From Lachnospiraceae bacterium (GTDB taxonomy: Bacteria; Bacillota; Clostridia; Lachnospirales; Lachnospiraceae), in NCBI GenBank assembly GCA_017436865.1, contig JAFSCH010000085.1, positions 1 to 41,263 on the forward strand: DNA of 41,263 nucleotides. The letters are read 5' to 3'. This document shows positions 4,780 through 10,829 of the stretch, in pieces. The translations under genes and the position numbers were made by a program. Position 1 is the first letter of the stretch, and each line of letters begins with the position of its first letter. The notes under the pieces are model-generated. The model did no database searches, was not told the DNA's origin, and saw nothing but the letters and a program-made list of their open reading frames with translations.

Positions 4780-7700
4780 TTAAGCGTCAATTGTGGAGAT
4801 GGTAAGAGTTGTTTCTTCCAAAACATCCAATAAGGCATCAACGGTATCCAGAGAAGTAAACATAGTTACGTTGTACTCTGTTGCAATCTGACGAAGCTGT
4901 GCACCGTCGCTGTTGCTGTTAGAGTCCGGATCCTTGGTGTTGATGAAGTAAGCAATATGACCCTGACGAAGTGCGTTAGGAATTGCATCACTTCCAGCAC
5001 TAAGCTTATCTAATGCATGAGTGCGGATGCCGTTCTTCTTCAAGAATGTAGCAGTACCTGAGGTAGCTTCGATGTTGAAGCCAAGCTGATAGAATCGACG
5101 AATCAAAGGCAGCGCCTCTTCCTTGTCCTGATCAGCGATGGTACAGAAAACAGTACCATAGTTCTGTAAATGCATTCCAGAAGCCTGAAGTGCTTTGTAA
5201 ACAGCGCGAGTCATAGTGCGGTCATAACCGATAGCCTCTCCAGTGGACTTCATTTCAGGAGACAGATAAGCATCTAAGCCACGAATCTTGTTGAAGGAGA
5301 ATACTGGAGCCTTTACGTACCAGCGATCCTTCTCTTCTGGATAAATATCGAAGAAGCCCTGTTCCTTTAAGCTCTTACCAAGGATAACTTCAGTAGCGAT
5401 GTCAGCCAATGAGTAACCAGTAGCCTTAGATAAGAAAGGAACTGTACGAGAAGAACGTGGATTTACTTCAATGATATATACATTATCATGCTCATCTACG
5501 ATGAACTGAATATTGAAAAGTCCTACAATGCCGATGCCAAGACCAAGCTTCTTAGCATACTGTAAAATGATGCCTTTAACCTTGTTAGAGATGGAGAAAG
5601 GTGGATAAACGGAGATAGAGTCACCGGAGTGAACACCAGTACGTTCAACCAATTCCATGATACCAGGAACAAAAACATCGCGTCCATCACAGATCGCATC
5701 GATTTCAACTTCACGACCCTGAATATACTTGTCAACAAGAACAGGCTTGTCCTCGTCAATTTCAACAGCTGTTCTCAGATAGTGGCGTAACTGATCTTCG
5801 TTAGCAACAATCTGCATTGCACGTCCACCTAAAACGAAAGAAGGACGAACTAAAACAGGATAACCGATTTCTGCTGCTGCGGCGATACCGTCTTCCATAT
5901 TTGTAACAGCCTTACCCTTTGCACGAGGGATATCTAATTCATTTAACAGATTTTCGAATGCGTTACGGTCTTCTGCACGATCGATAGCGGCACAGTCAGT
6001 ACCGATAATCTTCACACCACGGTCATGTAAAGGCTGTGCAAGGTTGATAGCAGTCTGACCACCAAGAGAGGCAATAACACCTTCTGGCTTTTCGAACTCT
6101 ACGATGTTCATAACATCTTCTGGAGTCAGGGGCTCGAAGTACAGCTTGTCTGCAGTTGTATAATCTGTAGAAACTGTTTCTGGATTATTGTTAATAATAA
6201 TTGCTTCGTAACCGGCATTTCTAATGGTCATAACAGCGTGTACGGTAGAGTAGTCGAATTCAACACCCTGACCGATACGGATAGGACCTGCACCGAGAAC
6301 GATAATCTTCTTCTTATCTGTCAGACGAGAAGTATTCTCACCTGTGTAAGAAGAATAGAAGTAAGGAATGTATGCGCCGGTATGACAAGTGTCAACCATC
6401 TTGAATACAGGGAACAAATTAAGTTCCTTACGCATATTGTATACATCCATCTCAGAGCATTTCCAAAGGCGAGCAATATATTTATCGCAGAAGCCCATCT
6501 TTTTAGCTGCAGTGAGAGTTTCAGCATCTTTGTTTGTACGAAGCTGTTCTTCCATGTCGATGATATTCTTAAAAGCTTCAAGGAAGAAAGGAGTAATCAT
6601 AGTAACTTCATGGATTTTTTCCAAAGAAACACCATGGTAAATGAGCTCAGCAATAGCAAAAATATTATCAGAGCGGAATTCTTTAATATACTCTAAAAGT
6701 TCCTCTACACTCATATTGTCAAACTTGGAAAGATACATATGGTTAGCACCGATTTCAAGAGAACGAATACCCTTTAATAAAGCTTCCTCTAAATTGGAGC
6801 CGATACCCATGATTTCACCAGTTGCCTTCATCTGAGTACCAAGTTTATTGGTTGCAGATGCGAACTTATCAAATGGGAATCGTGGCAACTTAGCGATAAC
6901 GTAGTCGAGCTTAGGTTCGAAAGCTGCATTTGTGTTAGCAATCTGAATGTCCTCAAGAGCCATACCAACAGCAATTTTTGCAGTAACACGGGCGATAGGA
7001 TATCCGGAAGCCTTAGATGCTAATGCTGAAGAACGGGAAACTCTAGGATTTACCTCGATTAAATAATACTCAGAGGAGTGAGGATTGAGAGCAAACTGAA
7101 CATTACAGCCACCTTCAATCTTTAATTCCTTGATAAGCTTAATAGCGGAATCATTCAGCATCTTCTCATCTTCTTTGCTGAGTGTCATGATAGGAGCAAC
7201 AACACAAGAGTCACCAGTATGTACACCAACTGGGTCGATATTTTCCATACCACAGATTGTAATAGCATGATCATTGGAGTCACGCATAACTTCGAACTCG
7301 ATTTCCTTGTAACCCTTTACGGATTTTTCGATTAAAACCTGATGTACAGGAGAAAGCTTAAATGCATTGACACCGATTTCCATTAATTCATCATCGTTGT
7401 ATGCAAATCCACCGCCGGTACCACCAAGAGTGAAGGCAGGACGAAGAACAACAGGATAACCGATACGATTTGCAGCTGCCTTAGCTTCTTCAAGAGAGTA
7501 TGTAATCTCAGAAGGGATAACAGGTTCACCGATGGACTCACACAATTCCTTAAACATTTCACGGTCTTCAGCACGTTCGATAGAAGCACTAGAAGTACCA
7601 AGTAATTCAACATTACACTCTTTGAGAATTCCTTTTTTCTCTAACTGCATAGCTAAGTTTAAGCCAGTCTGACCGCCGATACCAGGGATGATAGCGTCTG

Positions 7701-7947
7701 GACGTTCGTGGCGGATGATTTTTGCTACATATTCTAAAGTTAAAGGCTCCATGTATACTTTGTCAGCAATGATGGTGTCTGTCATAATGGTAGCAGGATT
7801 AGAGTTACATAAAACAACTTCGTATCCTTCTTCCTTCAATGCAAGACAAGCCTGTGTGCCGGCATAGTCAAATTCAGCGGCCTGACCGATAATGATAGGA
7901 CCTGAGCCGATAATTAAAATCTTCTTTATATCTGTTCTCTTAGACAT
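4780..7947 (-). CDS. carB: Carbamoyl-phosphate synthase large subunit, 1055 aa
   Basis: Makes carbamoyl phosphate from bicarbonate, ATP and ammonia supplied by the CarA glutaminase, feeding pyrimidines and arginine. Both halves of the duplicated ATP-grasp synthetase are present: GSGPIIIGQAAEFDYAG at the start and GAGPIRIGQGVEFDYS at about residue 545, each with its EVNPRxSR metal/ATP loop. Between them is the oligomerisation domain, and the last ~120 residues form the MGS-like allosteric domain (IEATSGTATFLKKNGI). I start at ATG 7947, seven bases after CAGGAGGT; an upstream in-frame ATG (7998) would add an unrelated 17-residue tail. carA is not in the window, and carB is followed by its own terminator, so it appears to be transcribed alone. 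Confidence 0.97.
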   Translation of the reverse strand: MSKRTDIKKILIIGSGPIIIGQAAEFDYAGTQACLALKEEGYEVVLCNSNPATIMTDTIIADKVYMEPLTLEYVAKIIRHERPDAIIPGIGGQTGLNLAMQLEKKGILKECNVELLGTSSASIERAEDREMFKELCESIGEPVIPSEITYSLEEAKAAANRIGYPVVLRPAFTLGGTGGGFAYNDDELMEIGVNAFKLSPVHQVLIEKSVKGYKEIEFEVMRDSNDHAITICGMENIDPVGVHTGDSCVVAPIMTLSKEDEKMLNDSAIKLIKELKIEGGCNVQFALNPHSSEYYLIEVNPRVSRSSALASKASGYPIARVTAKIAVGMALEDIQIANTNAAFEPKLDYVIAKLPRFPFDKFASATNKLGTQMKATGEIMGIGSNLEEALLKGIRSLEIGANHMYLSKFDNMSVEELLEYIKEFRSDNIFAIAELIYHGVSLEKIHEVTMITPFFLEAFKNIIDMEEQLRTNKDAETLTAAKKMGFCDKYIARLWKCSEMDVYNMRKELNLFPVFKMVDTCHTGAYIPYFYSSYTGENTSRLTDKKKIIVLGAGPIRIGQGVEFDYSTVHAVMTIRNAGYEAIIINNNPETVSTDYTTADKLYFEPLTPEDVMNIVEFEKPEGVIASLGGQTAINLAQPLHDRGVKIIGTDCAAIDRAEDRNAFENLLNELDIPRAKGKAVTNMEDGIAAAAEIGYPVLVRPSFVLGGRAMQIVANEDQLRHYLRTAVEIDEDKPVLVDKYIQGREVEIDAICDGRDVFVPGIMELVERTGVHSGDSISVYPPFSISNKVKGIILQYAKKLGLGIGIVGLFNIQFIVDEHDNVYIIEVNPRSSRTVPFLSKATGYSLADIATEVILGKSLKEQGFFDIYPEEKDRWYVKAPVFSFNKIRGLDAYLSPEMKSTGEAIGYDRTMTRAVYKALQASGMHLQNYGTVFCTIADQDKEEALPLIRRFYQLGFNIEATSGTATFLKKNGIRTHALDKLSAGSDAIPNALRQGHIAYFINTKDPDSNSNSDGAQLRQIATEYNVTMFTSLDTVDALLDVLEETTLTISTIDA

Positions 7948-8051
7948 TAATTTTACCTCCTGAATGTAAATTGGTTTGATAGAATTATTTTTAGACAATC
8001 TTCGTAAAATCTATGCTGTATGCTTGTTTTCTAATGATATGGTCTATTCAT

Positions 8052-8097
8052 AAAAAAACCGGCTCTATGAAATGTATATACAATTCATAAAAACCGG
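8052..8097 (-). terminator. Terminator-like hairpin in the carB leader
   Basis: On the minus strand, CCGG (8094-8097) pairs with CCGG (8059-8062) and an inner TATGAA/TTCATA stem (8084-8089 with 8066-8071) continues it across a small internal loop. A run of seven T residues (8058-8052) follows. It lies between the small leader ORF and the carB start, so transcripts from the upstream promoter must read through it to reach carB. Confidence 0.65.
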
Positions 8098-8102
8098 AAA
8101 TA

Positions 8103-8228
8103 TTAAATATCACATAATGGAAAACCAAAAGCAGACAATTTATAAATAGAAAAGAAAACACAGATACTGTTAACGAAAACAGTACCGAGAGAAGCAAAAA
8201 TAATATTTACATTAATATTCGTTGTCAT
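8103..8228 (-). CDS. Small ORF in the carB leader, 41 aa
   Basis: ATG 8228-8226 is preceded by AAAGGAG at a spacing of 7, and the frame runs to TAA at 8105-8103. The peptide begins MTTNINVNIIFASLGTVF and is strongly hydrophobic, with one likely membrane segment. The ORF starts about 80 bases below a good promoter and stops 6 bases before the terminator-like hairpin, the position of a leader peptide in transcription attenuation. It could equally be a small membrane protein that simply precedes carB. I know no homologue. Confidence 0.5.
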   Translation of the reverse strand: MTTNINVNIIFASLGTVFVNSICVFFSIYKLSAFGFPLCDI

Positions 8229-8315
8229 ATAGCTTCTCCTTTCTGTCTAAAAAATGTCTTGCTAAAAGCAACAAAACGGATATCCGAAAAGCTGCCGTAA
8301 GCATTTATCTTTACA

Positions 8316-8344
8316 ACGATACCATGTGACATCTATCTTGTCAA
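8316..8344 (-). promoter_or_regulatory. Promoter for the carB leader
   Basis: Minus strand TTGACA (8344-8339), a 17-base spacer and TATCGT (8321-8316). Transcription would start near 8309, giving a leader of about 360 bases before carB. Confidence 0.6.
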
Positions 8345-8405
8345 TCAAAAAAATGAAAAAATATGCAAAGGGAAAAACTAGTTAAGAAATGCGTTTAAGA
8401 TATGC

Positions 8406-8434
8406 TTGACATCAGAAATAGAAGGTGTTAATAT
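8406..8434 (+). promoter_or_regulatory. Strong sigma-A promoter for the attenuator
   Basis: TTGACA (8406-8411), a 17-base spacer and TAATAT (8429-8434). The transcript would begin near 8441, some 20 bases before the leader peptide start. It is divergent from the carB promoter about 60 bases away. Confidence 0.75.
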
Positions 8435-8462
8435 TGGGAAAAATTATCAAAGGAGCATACAA

Positions 8463-8525
8463 ATGAAGCACAATTTACATTCAAGAAATTATATGTACAT
8501 GTACTATAGACGTATTAGCCTATAA
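8463..8525 (+). CDS. Leader peptide of the attenuator, 20 aa
   Basis: ATG 8463 follows AAAGGAG (8449-8455) at a spacing of 7, and the frame ends at TAA 8523-8525. The peptide is MKHNLHSRNYMYMYYRRISL, with four Tyr, two extra Met and an Arg-Arg pair clustered in residues 10-17, like a run of control codons. The stop codon lies inside the 5' arm of the first hairpin (8519-8530), so a ribosome at the stop would block that arm, while one held on the Tyr/Arg codons would leave it free or nearly so. Tyrosine or arginine limitation, or a ribosome-binding drug, could be the signal; sequence alone does not decide. Confidence 0.7.
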   Translation: MKHNLHSRNYMYMYYRRISL

Positions 8526-8690
8526 CTGTGATATTAGGTTTAAAAGTTCCATGCACAGTTATAGGTCAGTAGGTCTTATATGTCTGTGCATAGAATAGAA
8601 TGTGAATGTAATTTATTTGATTATATATTGTATTACATATTTGTATTTTATTTATCGCACCAGACATATAGATGTTTGGTGCGATTTTTC
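8519..8690 (+). promoter_or_regulatory. Ribosome-mediated transcription attenuator (four competing RNA segments)
   Basis: Complementary segments form a chain. Segment 1 (8519-8530, CCTATAACTGTG) pairs perfectly over 12 bp with segment 2 (8554-8565). Segment 2 with its flank (8551-8558, ATGCACAG) can instead pair with segment 3 (8584-8591, CTGTGCAT). Segment 3 with its flank (8577-8586, TATATGTCTG) can instead pair over 10 bp with 8661-8670, the 5' arm of the terminator. A ribosome at the leader stop would favour 2:3 and termination; a stalled or absent ribosome would favour 1:2, freeing segment 3 to act as antiterminator. The layout is that of amino-acid or antibiotic attenuators. The gene controlled is the decayed acetyltransferase at 8915 and perhaps the operon after it. 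Confidence 0.7.
8654..8690 (+). terminator. Attenuator terminator
   Basis: ATCGCACCA (8654-8662) pairs with TGGTGCGAT (8677-8685), and the stem extends inward by five more pairs to an ATAG loop. TTTTTC follows. The 5' arm is the one that the antiterminator (8577-8586) can capture. Confidence 0.85.
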
Positions 8691-8709
8691 GTGAACATGC
8701 AAAGTCATG

Positions 8710-8755
8710 GTGATACACAAAAATTCATGCTTGCATGAAAGTTTTTGTGTATTAC
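8710..8755. repeat. Long inverted repeat
   Basis: Arms 8710-8723 and 8742-8755 (GTGATACACAAAAA with its complement, one G-T pair) are followed inward by TTCATGC/GCATGAA, making a hairpin of about 20 bp without a T tract. It is enclosed by GTGAACATGC (8691-8700) and its exact complement GCATGTTCAC (8798-8807). It looks like part of one dispersed palindromic element together with the tandem units that follow. Confidence 0.6.
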
Positions 8756-8761
8756 TATGAC

Positions 8762-8877
8762 GCGCAAAGCGACCGAGCGAATGAGAATTCGCGAGGTGCA
8801 TGTTCACGCAGGACGAGGAAGCGCAAAGCGACCGAGCGAATGAAGTTCGCGAGGTGCATATTCACGCAAGGCGAGAA
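8762..8877. repeat. GC-rich tandem duplication, two units of about 58 bp
   Basis: Units 8762-8820 and 8821-8877 share GCGCAAAGCGACCGAGCGAA, then an inner GCGAA...TTCGC hairpin, then CGAGGTGCAT and TTCACGCA. They differ at a few positions. Base composition is visibly richer in G and C than anything nearby. It separates the attenuator from the acetyltransferase remnant and looks like an inserted dispersed repeat. I have an impression of similar sequence in other Lachnospiraceae intergenic regions but cannot verify it. Confidence 0.65.
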
Positions 8878-8914
8878 TGTGGAAGTCAAGAAGAGGTATG
8901 CAGAAGGAGGAAAT

Positions 8915-9207
8915 ATGAGAGAAGATGTAACATTACGGTTAGCAACACAAGAAGATGCGAAGTTAATTCATCAGATGAAGTACGAGGCTTTCTTGCCATT
9001 GTATGAGAAATATCAGGATGATGAAACAAGTCCGGCAAAGGAAGGGATTGAAAAGGTTATTCGTCAATTGCAGGAAGAAAGAACAGATTACTATTATTGC
9101 TCCAACAATATACGCAGGCAGTAGCATGGAAATTAGATACTATATTACAGGAAAAAGGAGAAGAGCATATTATTAACGAGAAAATCACTTTAATAGGATA
9201 TGAAAGA
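8915..9207 (+). pseudogene. GNAT N-acetyltransferase remnant with internal deletions
   Basis: ATG 8915 has an excellent SD (AAGGAGG 8904-8910) and begins a clear GNAT N-terminus: VTLRLATQEDAKLIHQMKYEAF and then EKYQDDETSPAKE. After DYYY (about residue 61) the frame ends in unrelated residues at TAG 9122-9124. The typical GNAT C-terminus, AVAWKLDTILQEKG then EEHIINEKITLIGYERM, is found in another frame from about 9115. The middle, including the acetyl-CoA loop, and a short piece after QEKG (the usual CHLYEKMGY segment) are missing. Both ends therefore survive with the core deleted and a frameshift, so no active enzyme is expected. The 3' remnant reads into the next GNAT gene. Confidence 0.8.
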
Positions 9208-9972
9208 ATGACGGTTACCGCATGCGAAGGGGAAATACGTCTTTATGAAGAATTATCGCTAAATTCGCACCCGGCCATTCAGACGATGTGTTATGATGGA
9301 TGGTTATTGCGTTTTGCTAATGGATATACTGCAAGAGCGAATTCGGTAAATATGTTATATCCGTCTACGATAGAGTTAGAGACTAAGGTCGAGGAGTGCG
9401 AAGAGCAGTATTTTAGTAAGCAATTACCTTGTATTTTCAAAATAATAGATGGTAGTAATCATGCTTTGGATGAGATGCTTCAGAAAAGAGATTACAAGGT
9501 TGTAACACCAACAGATTTATTGGTGATGGATATAACAAAGAAAGAATTTGAAAGGAAAGCTTGTATTATAACGAATGAAGTTACAGATGAATGGCTTCAT
9601 GCTTATTTTAAATTTAAAAAGTTTATGGATTATGAAAACTGTAATACAGCAACTCAAATATTACAGTTGATACAGAATGAAACATTGTACTGTCAAATAG
9701 AACAGGATGGCGTAAGTGTTGCTTGTGCATTTGCGGTAATAGAGAGAGGCTATGTTTTCATAGGAAATGTGATTGTGGATGAAAAATATCGAGGTAAGGG
9801 ATATGGACAGCAGTTGTGTGAAAATCTTTTAGCCAAGGCAAAAGAACAAGGGGCACATACGGCATATCTTCAAGTGGTTCAAAGTAATCAGGTTGCATAT
9901 AACTTATATAAAAAATTGGGGTATCGGAAAATATATTCTTACTGGTATCGTAAAAAAGATTTAGAAAGGTAA
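9208..9972 (+). CDS. GNAT family N-acetyltransferase, 254 aa
   Basis: A two-part acetyltransferase. The N-terminal half carries the YEELSLNSHPAIQTMCYDGWLLRFANGYTARANSVN signature of a family of ~250-aa GNATs. The C-terminal half has the acetyl-CoA loop VDEKYRGKGYGQQLC (R/Q-x-x-G-x-G) and ends with AYNLYKKLGYRKIYSYWYR. I choose ATG 9208 because homologues begin close to the YEELSLN segment; codons upstream in the same frame belong to the remnant of the preceding GNAT. The SD is weak (AGGA 9195-9198). A metallo-hydrolase gene follows after 11 bases. The substrate, a small amine or an antibiotic, is unknown. Confidence 0.85.
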   Translation: MTVTACEGEIRLYEELSLNSHPAIQTMCYDGWLLRFANGYTARANSVNMLYPSTIELETKVEECEEQYFSKQLPCIFKIIDGSNHALDEMLQKRDYKVVTPTDLLVMDITKKEFERKACIITNEVTDEWLHAYFKFKKFMDYENCNTATQILQLIQNETLYCQIEQDGVSVACAFAVIERGYVFIGNVIVDEKYRGKGYGQQLCENLLAKAKEQGAHTAYLQVVQSNQVAYNLYKKLGYRKIYSYWYRKKDLER

Positions 9973-9983
9973 GGTTTTTAGTC

Positions 9984-10829
9984 ATGAAGATAAAGATAAT
10001 TGGTTCAGGAGGTTGTGTCAGTACACCAAGACCTTGTTGCGATTGCAGAGTTTGCAAGGAGGCAAGAGAAAAGGGATTTCCATATGCGAGAACGGGGTGT
10101 AGTATATATATAGAAGAAATAGCGCTTTTGATTGATACGCCGGAGGATATAAACTATGCATTGAATCATGCAGGAGTTAGTAAAGTGGAGCATGTTTTAT
10201 ATAGTCATGCAGACCCGGATCACACGATGGGAATGCGAGTGTTTGAACAGTTAAAAATGGATTGGTTAGGTTGCTCTGTTGGTAAAATGAATGAGAAACC
10301 CATTGAAGTACAAGCATTGCCAAAGGTTATTGAGGAGTTAAGAGAACAGAAAATATTCAGGGGCTCGGTATTGGATTATTATGAGTGGCGTGGTCTAGTG
10401 ACAGTAAACGATAGTTATCGTATAGAAAAAGGAGATATCTGTATTGATTTGATACCTGTTAATGAGAGCGAAGAGGTTGCTGTTTTTGTTATTACACAAA
10501 GGGATAAGAAAGTAATCTATGCGCCTTGTGACGTAAAGCCATTTCCGAAAAATGAACGATTCATGGGTGCAGACGTTCTTATAATAGGAAATACCATTGT
10601 GGGAAATGTATTAAAGGATGGATTTGTATTGGAACAGGACAATCCGTTGAGAGAAGAGCTATTTGTTATGGAAGAAATTGAAGCACTGAAAGCGAAATAT
10701 GGTATTAAGCAGGTCATTATAACGCATTTAGAAGAGGATTGGGGAAAATCCTACGATGATTATGTGGAGCTGGAAAAGGAGTATGAAGGAATACGATTTG
10801 CGTATGATGGAATGGAGGTAGAGTTGTAG
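9984..10829 (+). CDS. MBL-fold metallo-hydrolase, PhnP-like, 281 aa
   Basis: The metallo-beta-lactamase signature HADPDH (His75, Asp77, Asp79, His80) and later YAPCDVK and TTHL-like metal ligand segments (IITHLEED near residue 252) are present. The N-terminal GSGGC...RPCCDCRVCKEAR (Cys11, 18, 19, 21, 24) resembles the extra zinc cluster of PhnP-type phosphodiesterases that open cyclic ribose phosphates. It probably cleaves a phosphodiester in the cytoplasm; an exact PhnP role is not implied since no phosphonate genes are near. It lies between a GNAT (11-base gap) and a transglutaminase-like gene (2-base gap), so the three are one operon. Confidence 0.85.
   Translation: MKIKIIGSGGCVSTPRPCCDCRVCKEAREKGFPYARTGCSIYIEEIALLIDTPEDINYALNHAGVSKVEHVLYSHADPDHTMGMRVFEQLKMDWLGCSVGKMNEKPIEVQALPKVIEELREQKIFRGSVLDYYEWRGLVTVNDSYRIEKGDICIDLIPVNESEEVAVFVITQRDKKVIYAPCDVKPFPKNERFMGADVLIIGNTIVGNVLKDGFVLEQDNPLREELFVMEEIEALKAKYGIKQVIITHLEEDWGKSYDDYVELEKEYEGIRFAYDGMEVEL

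Follow-up and report, generated by a model that had tools for sequence, protein, structure and literature searches.

A leader region located upstream of an acetyltransferase operon in a Lachnospiraceae genome raises the question of which signal it reads and which genes it serves. This region (positions 8406–8690) lies in contig JAFSCH010000085.1 of the Lachnospiraceae bacterium assembly GCA_017436865.1, and the whole stretch of DNA that was analyzed (positions 1 to 41,263 of this contig; 41,263 nucleotides (nt)) is referred to here as the window. An initial annotation, made from the sequence alone, had described the element as a ribosome-mediated attenuator and had proposed uncharged tRNA-Tyr or tRNA-Arg, or a ribosome-targeting drug, as its signal. 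In the present work, we have collected homologues of the element, analyzed the covariation of its helices, the codons of its leader peptide and the genes located behind it, and modeled its folding. On the basis of these comparisons, the conserved attenuator is real, its description as ribosome-mediated being supported by covariation, a leader open reading frame (ORF), a cluster of Tyr codons and mutually exclusive stems, and it probably controls transcription by reading the charging of tRNA-Tyr.

Architecture, recurrence and covariation of the attenuator

All of the features of the element described below are on the forward strand. The leader ORF (8463–8525; MKHNLHSRNYMYMYYRRISL) consists of 20 codons, is preceded by a Shine-Dalgarno sequence AAGGAG (8450–8455, read from the sequence) and ends in a stop codon (8523–8525) located inside arm 1, and in these respects the initial annotation was accurate. 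The control codons Y10 M11 Y12 M13 Y14 Y15 (8490–8507), whose Tyr residues are mostly conserved among 97 copies, are followed by the Arg-Arg codons, which form the RNA motif RGRC(G/A)UA (8508–8514) and pair with UAGGUCU (8570–8576) with one mismatch. Arm 1 (8518–8530) is the partner of arm 2 (8551–8566), in which 8554–8566 pairs with arm 1 and 8551–8558 with arm 3. Arm 3 (8577–8591) can pair with arm 2, with arm 4 or with the Tyr codons, while arm 4 (8657–8670) is both the antiterminator partner of arm 3 and the 5' half of the terminator, in which it pairs with arm 5 (8672–8685).

The four pairings that had originally been claimed are all exact, viz. arm1:arm2 (12/12; 8519–8530 CCTATAACTGTG with 8554–8565 CACAGTTATAGG), arm2:arm3 (8/8; 8551–8558 ATGCACAG with 8584–8591 CTGTGCAT), arm3:arm4 (10/10; 8577–8586 TATATGTCTG with 8661–8670 CAGACATATA, the helix extending beyond a bulge through 8587–8589 with 8657–8659) and the terminator (9/9; 8654–8662 ATCGCACCA with 8677–8685 TGGTGCGAT). 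The intrinsic terminator (8654–8689) as a whole comprises 14 pairs over 8654–8685 (8654–8667 with 8672–8685) followed by a T tail, and it is the sole terminator-like site in 8300–8950, where 0.4 are expected. The fold of 8430–8695 has a predicted energy of -79.8 kcal/mol, compared with a mean of -49.7 kcal/mol for 200 shuffled sequences (z = -6.79), none of which folds to as low an energy. In the predicted ribosome-free fold the leader (8474–8530) zips onto 8554–8606, which places the Tyr codons (8492–8504) opposite arm 3. The promoter upstream, which had been described as strong, is represented by a TTGACA-17-TAATAT pair (8406–8434) that matches the consensus at 10 of 12 positions; two other listed sites score equally, the scan of 8300–8950 gave 6 promoter-like sites vs. 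3.4 in shuffles, and the pair, taken alone, is weak evidence for a promoter. A comparable pair is found at most 90 nt upstream of 45 of the 85 homologous leaders.

The window genome carries one copy of the element. Blastn searches across 60 related genomes have identified clear copies in the same genus, most of the weak matches (E up to 10) being noise, and an exact arm-3 pattern has retrieved 97 stretches from the genomes of named species. The titles of these pattern matches are mostly Lachnospiraceae, the others being Roseburia, Lachnospira, Acetatifactor, Anaerobium, Eubacterium and Clostridium, unplaced Clostridia, Eubacteriales and Bacillota, and one sequence (L092) labeled Gastranaerophilales. 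Pooling of the blastn, viral and pattern loci resulted in 95 distinct matches, for 85 of which an ATG leader was found by a script that demanded a Shine-Dalgarno-like sequence and, which made it biased, MY, YR, RR or YY in the peptide. The leaders missed by this script include two truncated by a contig end (L018 and L119), one of which only the end is retained (L055), two that were miscalled with GTG and TTG starts (L044 and L071; an ATG leader is present at the L044 locus as L145, and the L071 call contains one in frame) and one without Tyr (L072). No leader is present at three of the ten matches for which the script called none (L079, L083 and L104). An exact pattern match on a viral contig (L135), which has no leader, was judged to be due to chance.

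A covariance model (R1) was built on 48 copies; within the genus it matches 17 of 38 genomes and within the family 21 of 397, the window genome being counted in both, and the family-level run places the element in 20 of 334 sampled genera. In a class-wide sample only 1 of 391 genomes was matched, viz. the window genome itself, although the stricter filters that were used in the family and class runs may have lost weak copies. By these counts the element is sporadic within Lachnospiraceae, and it looks restricted to this family because the class sample matched the window genome alone. A blastn search of plasmids with the element returned 7 records with weak matches of 24–29 nt and no homologue. 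The search of Lachnospiraceae genomes and the covariance model that had been suggested at the outset reveal an element shared by many Lachnospiraceae, 97 distinct copies of which have been compared.

Alignment A1, on which the covariation analysis is based, contains 73 of the 84 copies with full flanks. The copies left out of it are L062, L075, L078, L080, L088, L110 and L131 (no conserved terminator by eye), L087 and L129 (divergent terminator), L077 (unread bases) and L120 (near-duplicate). RNAalifold picked the arm3:arm4 and Arg-codon helices unprompted. The arm3:arm4 helix is paired in 96.9% of cells and has 37 double-change cells, vs. 16.6 in shuffles; the corresponding values are 91.9%, 89 and 26.3 for the terminator and 78.3%, 45 and 18.8 for arm1:arm2, and for each of these three helices 0 of 500 shuffles reach the observed count of double-change cells. 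The contrast with the shuffles is weaker when base pairs showing a double change are counted instead of cells, the observed value being reached by 2 of 500 shuffles for the terminator and by 20 of 500 for arm1:arm2. In slid controls the paired cells amount to 18–49% for arm3:arm4, 23–48% for the terminator and 24–39% for arm1:arm2. In 79 of the 85 sequences, arm 1 was also paired with its own and with swapped arms 2 (-18.5 vs. -13.1 kcal/mol), as was arm 3 with arms 4 (-15.4 vs. -14.0 kcal/mol). The helix of the Arg codons with UAGGUCU is paired in 99.2% of cells, one of its pairs being rich in double changes. The arm2:arm3 helix is paired in 98.1% of cells with variation that is almost all G-U and a single double-change cell, and it is conserved, yet too invariant for proof by covariation. 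Kinship among the alignment rows weakens every one of the shuffle controls. An absence of compensatory changes in homologues had been named beforehand as an observation that would speak against the attenuator; instead, the double-change cells of three helices outnumber those in 500 of 500 shuffles, and arm1:arm2, arm3:arm4 and the terminator are, in this alignment, supported by compensatory changes.

The signal read by the leader

The codons of the leader were counted in 97 distinct elements, for which an exact UAGGUCU and the Arg-codon motif were required and no leader-script filter was applied, positions being numbered relative to the first Arg codon. The consensus of the leader is NLH...YMYMYYRR(I/T). 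Tyr occupies positions -2 (83 of these elements), -4 (73), -1 (68) and -6 (51), and two or more Tyr codons are found in -6 to -1 in 86 of the 97, one in 4 and none in 7. Arg is present at +1 in 90 of the 97, the first Arg is replaced by Gly in 24, and two elements (L011 and L047) lack both Arg codons. The second Arg codon is exclusively CGT or CAT (85/85). Because of this restriction, of the pairing with UAGGUCU and of the missing Arg in L011 and L047, the Arg codons look constrained at the RNA level.

The genes that are located behind the element provide a second line of evidence. The first downstream gene was assigned for 93 distinct elements using profile models made from the element loci (at least 25 bits, start within 450 nt), representative members of which were named with Pfam and NCBIfam. 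It encodes a GNAT acetyltransferase in 72 cases, a type I phosphodiesterase in 6, a tyrosyl-tRNA synthetase (TyrRS) in 4 and a relative of nucleoside phosphorylases in 2 (one of which, L044, is a weak fragment); the remainder are single other genes (6), no model match (1) and contig ends (2). By a stricter count, a GNAT of at least 40 bits is found within 1.5 kb of 70 of the 93 elements. A relative of the metallo-beta-lactamase (MBL)-fold hydrolase encoded in the window is located within 1.5 kb of 17 of them; one such relative, L107, was checked with Pfam. The GNATs fall into four alignment groups, whose profiles match, among solved structures, PaiA, spermidine acetyltransferases, 2fiw, BH1408 and YpeA best or frequently, and one group has weaker matches to the structures of aminoglycoside and streptothricin acetyltransferases. 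MccE and RimL chains are absent among the matches listed for the four group profiles. The element is present at 14 of the best 30 of 61 loci of relatives of the L051 GNAT.

Some individual loci are also of interest. The element of L118 precedes an Imm33/DUF4241 protein; the next protein encoded there has two ABC domains and was read as ABC-F. An ornithine/aspartate carbamoyltransferase is encoded behind the GNAT in L045, L082 and L157 (the first two checked with Pfam). Near a GNAT relative for which R1 finds no attenuator, a yjdF (azaaromatic) riboswitch is present (L246, 2845–2970, reverse strand).

Of the four TyrRS proteins encoded behind elements, three were scanned and score 314–385 bits against an NCBIfam cut-off of 113.8, and the remaining one (L120) shares 98.8% identity with the TyrRS of L066. 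A housekeeping tyrS is also present in three of the four genomes (G833, G835 and G836), where the attenuator-borne TyrRS is only 27–31% identical to the housekeeping copy; none was found in the fourth genome, the metagenome-assembled genome (MAG) G834. Two copies of the element are present in one MAG (CALWKC), one before a GNAT (L039) and one before a second TyrRS (L120). Because the two types of attenuator-borne TyrRS (L092 vs. L058, L066 and L120) are only 31–33% alike, TyrRS genes seem to have acquired the switch at least twice. Although the MAG that harbors L092 is labeled Gastranaerophilales, it shares with the Bacillota MAG G833 a housekeeping tyrS of 84% identity, and it is probably mislabeled or mixed.

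It is well established that a T-box before a TyrRS gene senses uncharged tRNA-Tyr, as those mentioned here presumably do. Relatives of the L058 TyrRS were found in 22 of 394 genomes of the family (E < 1e-130), and an Rfam T-box is present at 19 of these 22 loci and the element (R1) at none, while Rfam detects no T-box at any of the four attenuator-borne TyrRS loci. The attenuator thus seems to replace the T-box before the second TyrRS, and it can therefore be argued that it senses the same signal, i.e., uncharged tRNA-Tyr. The Rfam T-box is likewise not found at the housekeeping tyrS of G833, G835 and G836, unlike that of the window genome. We consider tRNA-Tyr charging to be the likely signal of the attenuator. 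As regards the candidate signals that had been put forward originally, tyrosine is favored by the second TyrRS targets and the T-box replacement, and arginine is disfavored by codons that look constrained at the RNA level.

The switching that we infer for this element involves ribosome stalling, altered termination and relief of a block on Tyr-tRNA by the target genes. When Tyr-tRNA is ample, the ribosome would either proceed as far as the stop codon, which lies in arm 1, or depart and leave the leader to re-zip; in either case arm 2 or the leader would hold arm 3, and the terminator would form. When Tyr-tRNA is scarce, the ribosome would halt at Tyr10–Tyr15 with its front edge just before arm 1, so that arm1:arm2 could form and a free arm 3 could capture arm 4, which would prevent termination and allow the downstream gene to be transcribed. 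The products of the induced genes (GNATs, spare TyrRS, and nucleotide and nucleoside enzymes) would then relieve the block on Tyr-tRNA charging. Given that a ribosome usually extends 16 nt downstream of its P site, a ribosome at Tyr15 would end at about 8517, one base 5' of arm 1, and a ribosome at the stop codon would cover arm 1. Partition functions computed for 79 sequences on the RNA ahead of the ribosome give a mean probability of arm3:arm4 of 0.74–0.75 for stalls at Tyr codons (above 0.5 in 96–97% of the sequences), and of 0.24 when no ribosome is present (above 0.5 in 28%). Between the Tyr stall and the stop codon, this probability falls by more than 0.2 in 31 of the 79 sequences and climbs by more than 0.2 in one.

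A number of observations weigh against this interpretation. At equilibrium, a ribosome at the stop codon still leaves a mean arm3:arm4 probability of 0.51 (above 0.5 in 59% of the 79), and in the window this probability is 0.71 in the stalled state vs. 0.66 at the stop. Because the modeled stop state favors arm2:arm3 only partly, it must be assumed either that kinetics favors arm2:arm3 or that the OFF state consists for the most part of leader RNA that has re-zipped once the ribosome is released. As to the fold, a conserved terminator is not visible by eye in 7 of 84 copies, the search pattern fixed arm 3 in most of the alignment rows, 124 of 500 shuffles have at least as many double-change pairs as arm3:arm4, and this helix slid by +2 retains 35 double-change cells vs. 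37 (but is 49% paired vs. 97%). As to the signal, seven leaders have no Tyr in -6 to -1 (L022, which is the same place as L180, L044, L056, L072, L103, L108 and L142), and we know of no link to tyrosine for the GNATs, which constitute most of the targets. A T-box was found at 0 of 17 scanned loci of GNAT relatives (16 of them without the element), and in the window itself the first GNAT behind the element is broken. In addition, the conservation of YMYMY may in part be due to pairing with arm 3, the duplex of the Tyr stretch with arm 3 having an energy of -8.4 kcal/mol vs. -3.9 kcal/mol when shuffled. Leaders with four Tyr in which this pairing is near the shuffled value (L066 and L120, -4.3; L110, -3.8; L054, -5.0) and one with three Tyr (L154, -3.6) suggest, because they keep these codons, that Tyr is retained independently of pairing with arm 3. 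Own and swapped combinations of Tyr codons and arm 3 do not differ (-8.48 vs. -8.49), a comparison that is powerless since arm 3 is near-invariant.

The abundance of GNATs raises the alternative that the leader ribosome is arrested by a ribosome-targeting drug, as in erm or msrD, rather than by a shortage of Tyr-tRNA, and that the GNATs inactivate this drug. The GNAT superfamily includes drug acetyltransferases, GNATs follow 72 of the 93 elements, and the ABC-F-like protein, second behind the L118 element, would also suit such a role. The E. coli protein YjhQ, too, is presumably a GNAT. The topAI-yjhQ genes are controlled by toiL, a leader responsive to more than one ribosome drug (PMC12121999). 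This alternative, however, leaves the TyrRS targets unexplained, and none of 5 scanned GNATs reaches any NCBIfam family cut-off, those of drug acetyltransferases included. Arrest peptides usually require exact residues, whereas codons -6 to -1 of the leader vary and yet keep Tyr. As to the traits of drug-induced arrest leaders, we recognize no known arrest motif in the leader, and an ABC-F-like gene is present behind one element. Taken together, we consider a drug signal rather unlikely.

A sensor of translation in general, in which any slow leader ribosome induces without amino acid specificity, would account for the seven Tyr-less leaders, which retain arm 3 and the Arg-codon motif, and for the modeled stalls at either Arg codon, which also favor arm3:arm4 (probability above 0.5 in 91% of the 79 sequences for the first and 81% for the second). 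The strong enrichment of Tyr in the leader and the TyrRS targets make it very unlikely. We attach even less credence to an attenuator that senses arginine through its Arg-Arg codons. The prevalence of Arg at +1, the carbamoyltransferases behind three of the GNATs and the carB-like gene that is divergent to the window element would agree with it, but the restricted and paired second Arg codon, the replacement of the first Arg by Gly, the absence of both codons in two elements and the absence of arginyl-tRNA synthetase among the identified first downstream genes of the 93 elements all argue in the other direction. Reading of tRNA-Tyr charging remains the interpretation that we prefer.

The neighborhood of the element in the window

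In the window, the equivalent of the GNAT behind the element in its relatives is an interrupted fragment (8915–9121, to 9219 at its widest, forward strand), which begins about 230 nt from the element and matches residues 9–68 and 141–191 of the L057 GNAT in two different frames. It is followed on the same strand by open frames for a GNAT acetyltransferase (Rv0428c_C/Acetyltransf_1; 9097–9972) and an MBL-fold hydrolase (9984–10829). The sole tyrS of the window genome that scores above the cut-off is at another place and is preceded by a T-box, and the attenuator here would therefore serve the acetyltransferase operon only.

The region between the terminator and the GNAT (8695–8884) contains a 20-nt inverted repeat (8704–8761) and two tandem copies of a GCGCAAAGCGACCGAGCG-type repeat, as well as a sub-threshold match to the Clostridiales-1 RNA (RF01699; 8695–8803; 40.9 bits, cut-off 48). 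On the reverse strand, and divergent to the element, lies the carB-like gene (4780–7998), upstream of which are a 41-codon ORF (8103–8228) and an inverted repeat near 8055–8098 that is followed by a T run. This repeat was read by eye; the terminator scan omitted it and gave another terminator-like site (8186–8163, reverse strand). The region 8055–8228 is perhaps another leader.

Related systems and biological significance

Rfam has no gathering-score match over the window, 8406–8690 included, and a scan of 8200–8900 (E up to 5) gave only sub-threshold matches, with the T-box absent among the 10 listed. The element is also undescribed in the open-licence literature that was searched (subscription papers being outside the search), in agreement with the initial statement that no described attenuator with this peptide was known. 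Its proposed way of working is that of trp-type attenuation, and two precedents, one for a tryptophanyl-tRNA synthetase and one for hisS, come closest to it. Vecchione and Sello reportedly described in 2010 a ribosome-mediated transcription attenuator of an auxiliary, antibiotic-resistant tryptophanyl-tRNA synthetase (cited in PMC4787780), presumably TrpRS1 of Streptomyces in connection with indolmycin. There, too, a leader peptide attenuates the gene of a second aminoacyl-tRNA synthetase; that system concerns Trp and actinomycetes, whereas the present element concerns Tyr and Lachnospiraceae and has mostly GNATs and other enzymes as its targets. The T-box leader (RF00230) also senses uncharged tRNA and antiterminates, as is well established, but it has no leader ORF, and the element has no Rfam T-box match. 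Within the Firmicutes, his leader peptides have been found before hisS paralogues in Bacilli, where it is similarly a leader peptide, and not a T-box, that precedes the synthetase paralogue (Naville and Gautheret, 2010; PMC2965389). These leaders differ in their amino acid and their targets, and the term acetyltransferase is absent from the main text of that source. A possible parallel for the GNATs is provided by microcin C immunity, in which the GNAT MccE acetylates an aminoacyl-adenylate mimic and thereby protects a synthetase (PMC7157772). With no MccE chain among the listed structure matches, kinship of the element GNATs with MccE is only putative.

Firmicutes sense uncharged tRNA largely by means of T-boxes; in the present case one of these seems to have given way to a peptide attenuator, which seems also to have spread before otherwise unrelated genes. 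It is conceivable, though we hold it to be doubtful, that the genes behind the element form an immunity regulon that is inducible and sporadic in Lachnospiraceae, against a natural toxin directed at TyrRS, perhaps a tyrosyl-adenylate mimic. If this is true, a shortage of Tyr-tRNA would induce countermeasures that differ from strain to strain, viz. a resistant second TyrRS, a toxin-acetylating GNAT, a toxin-cutting enzyme of the nucleotide pyrophosphatase or phosphorylase type, or an MBL-fold hydrolase. If the element reads tRNA-Tyr, its targets are candidate answers to the inhibition of TyrRS, the substrates of several GNAT families that are uncharacterized would become testable, and a class of TyrRS-directed compounds that is yet to be discovered may be present in the habitat of these bacteria.
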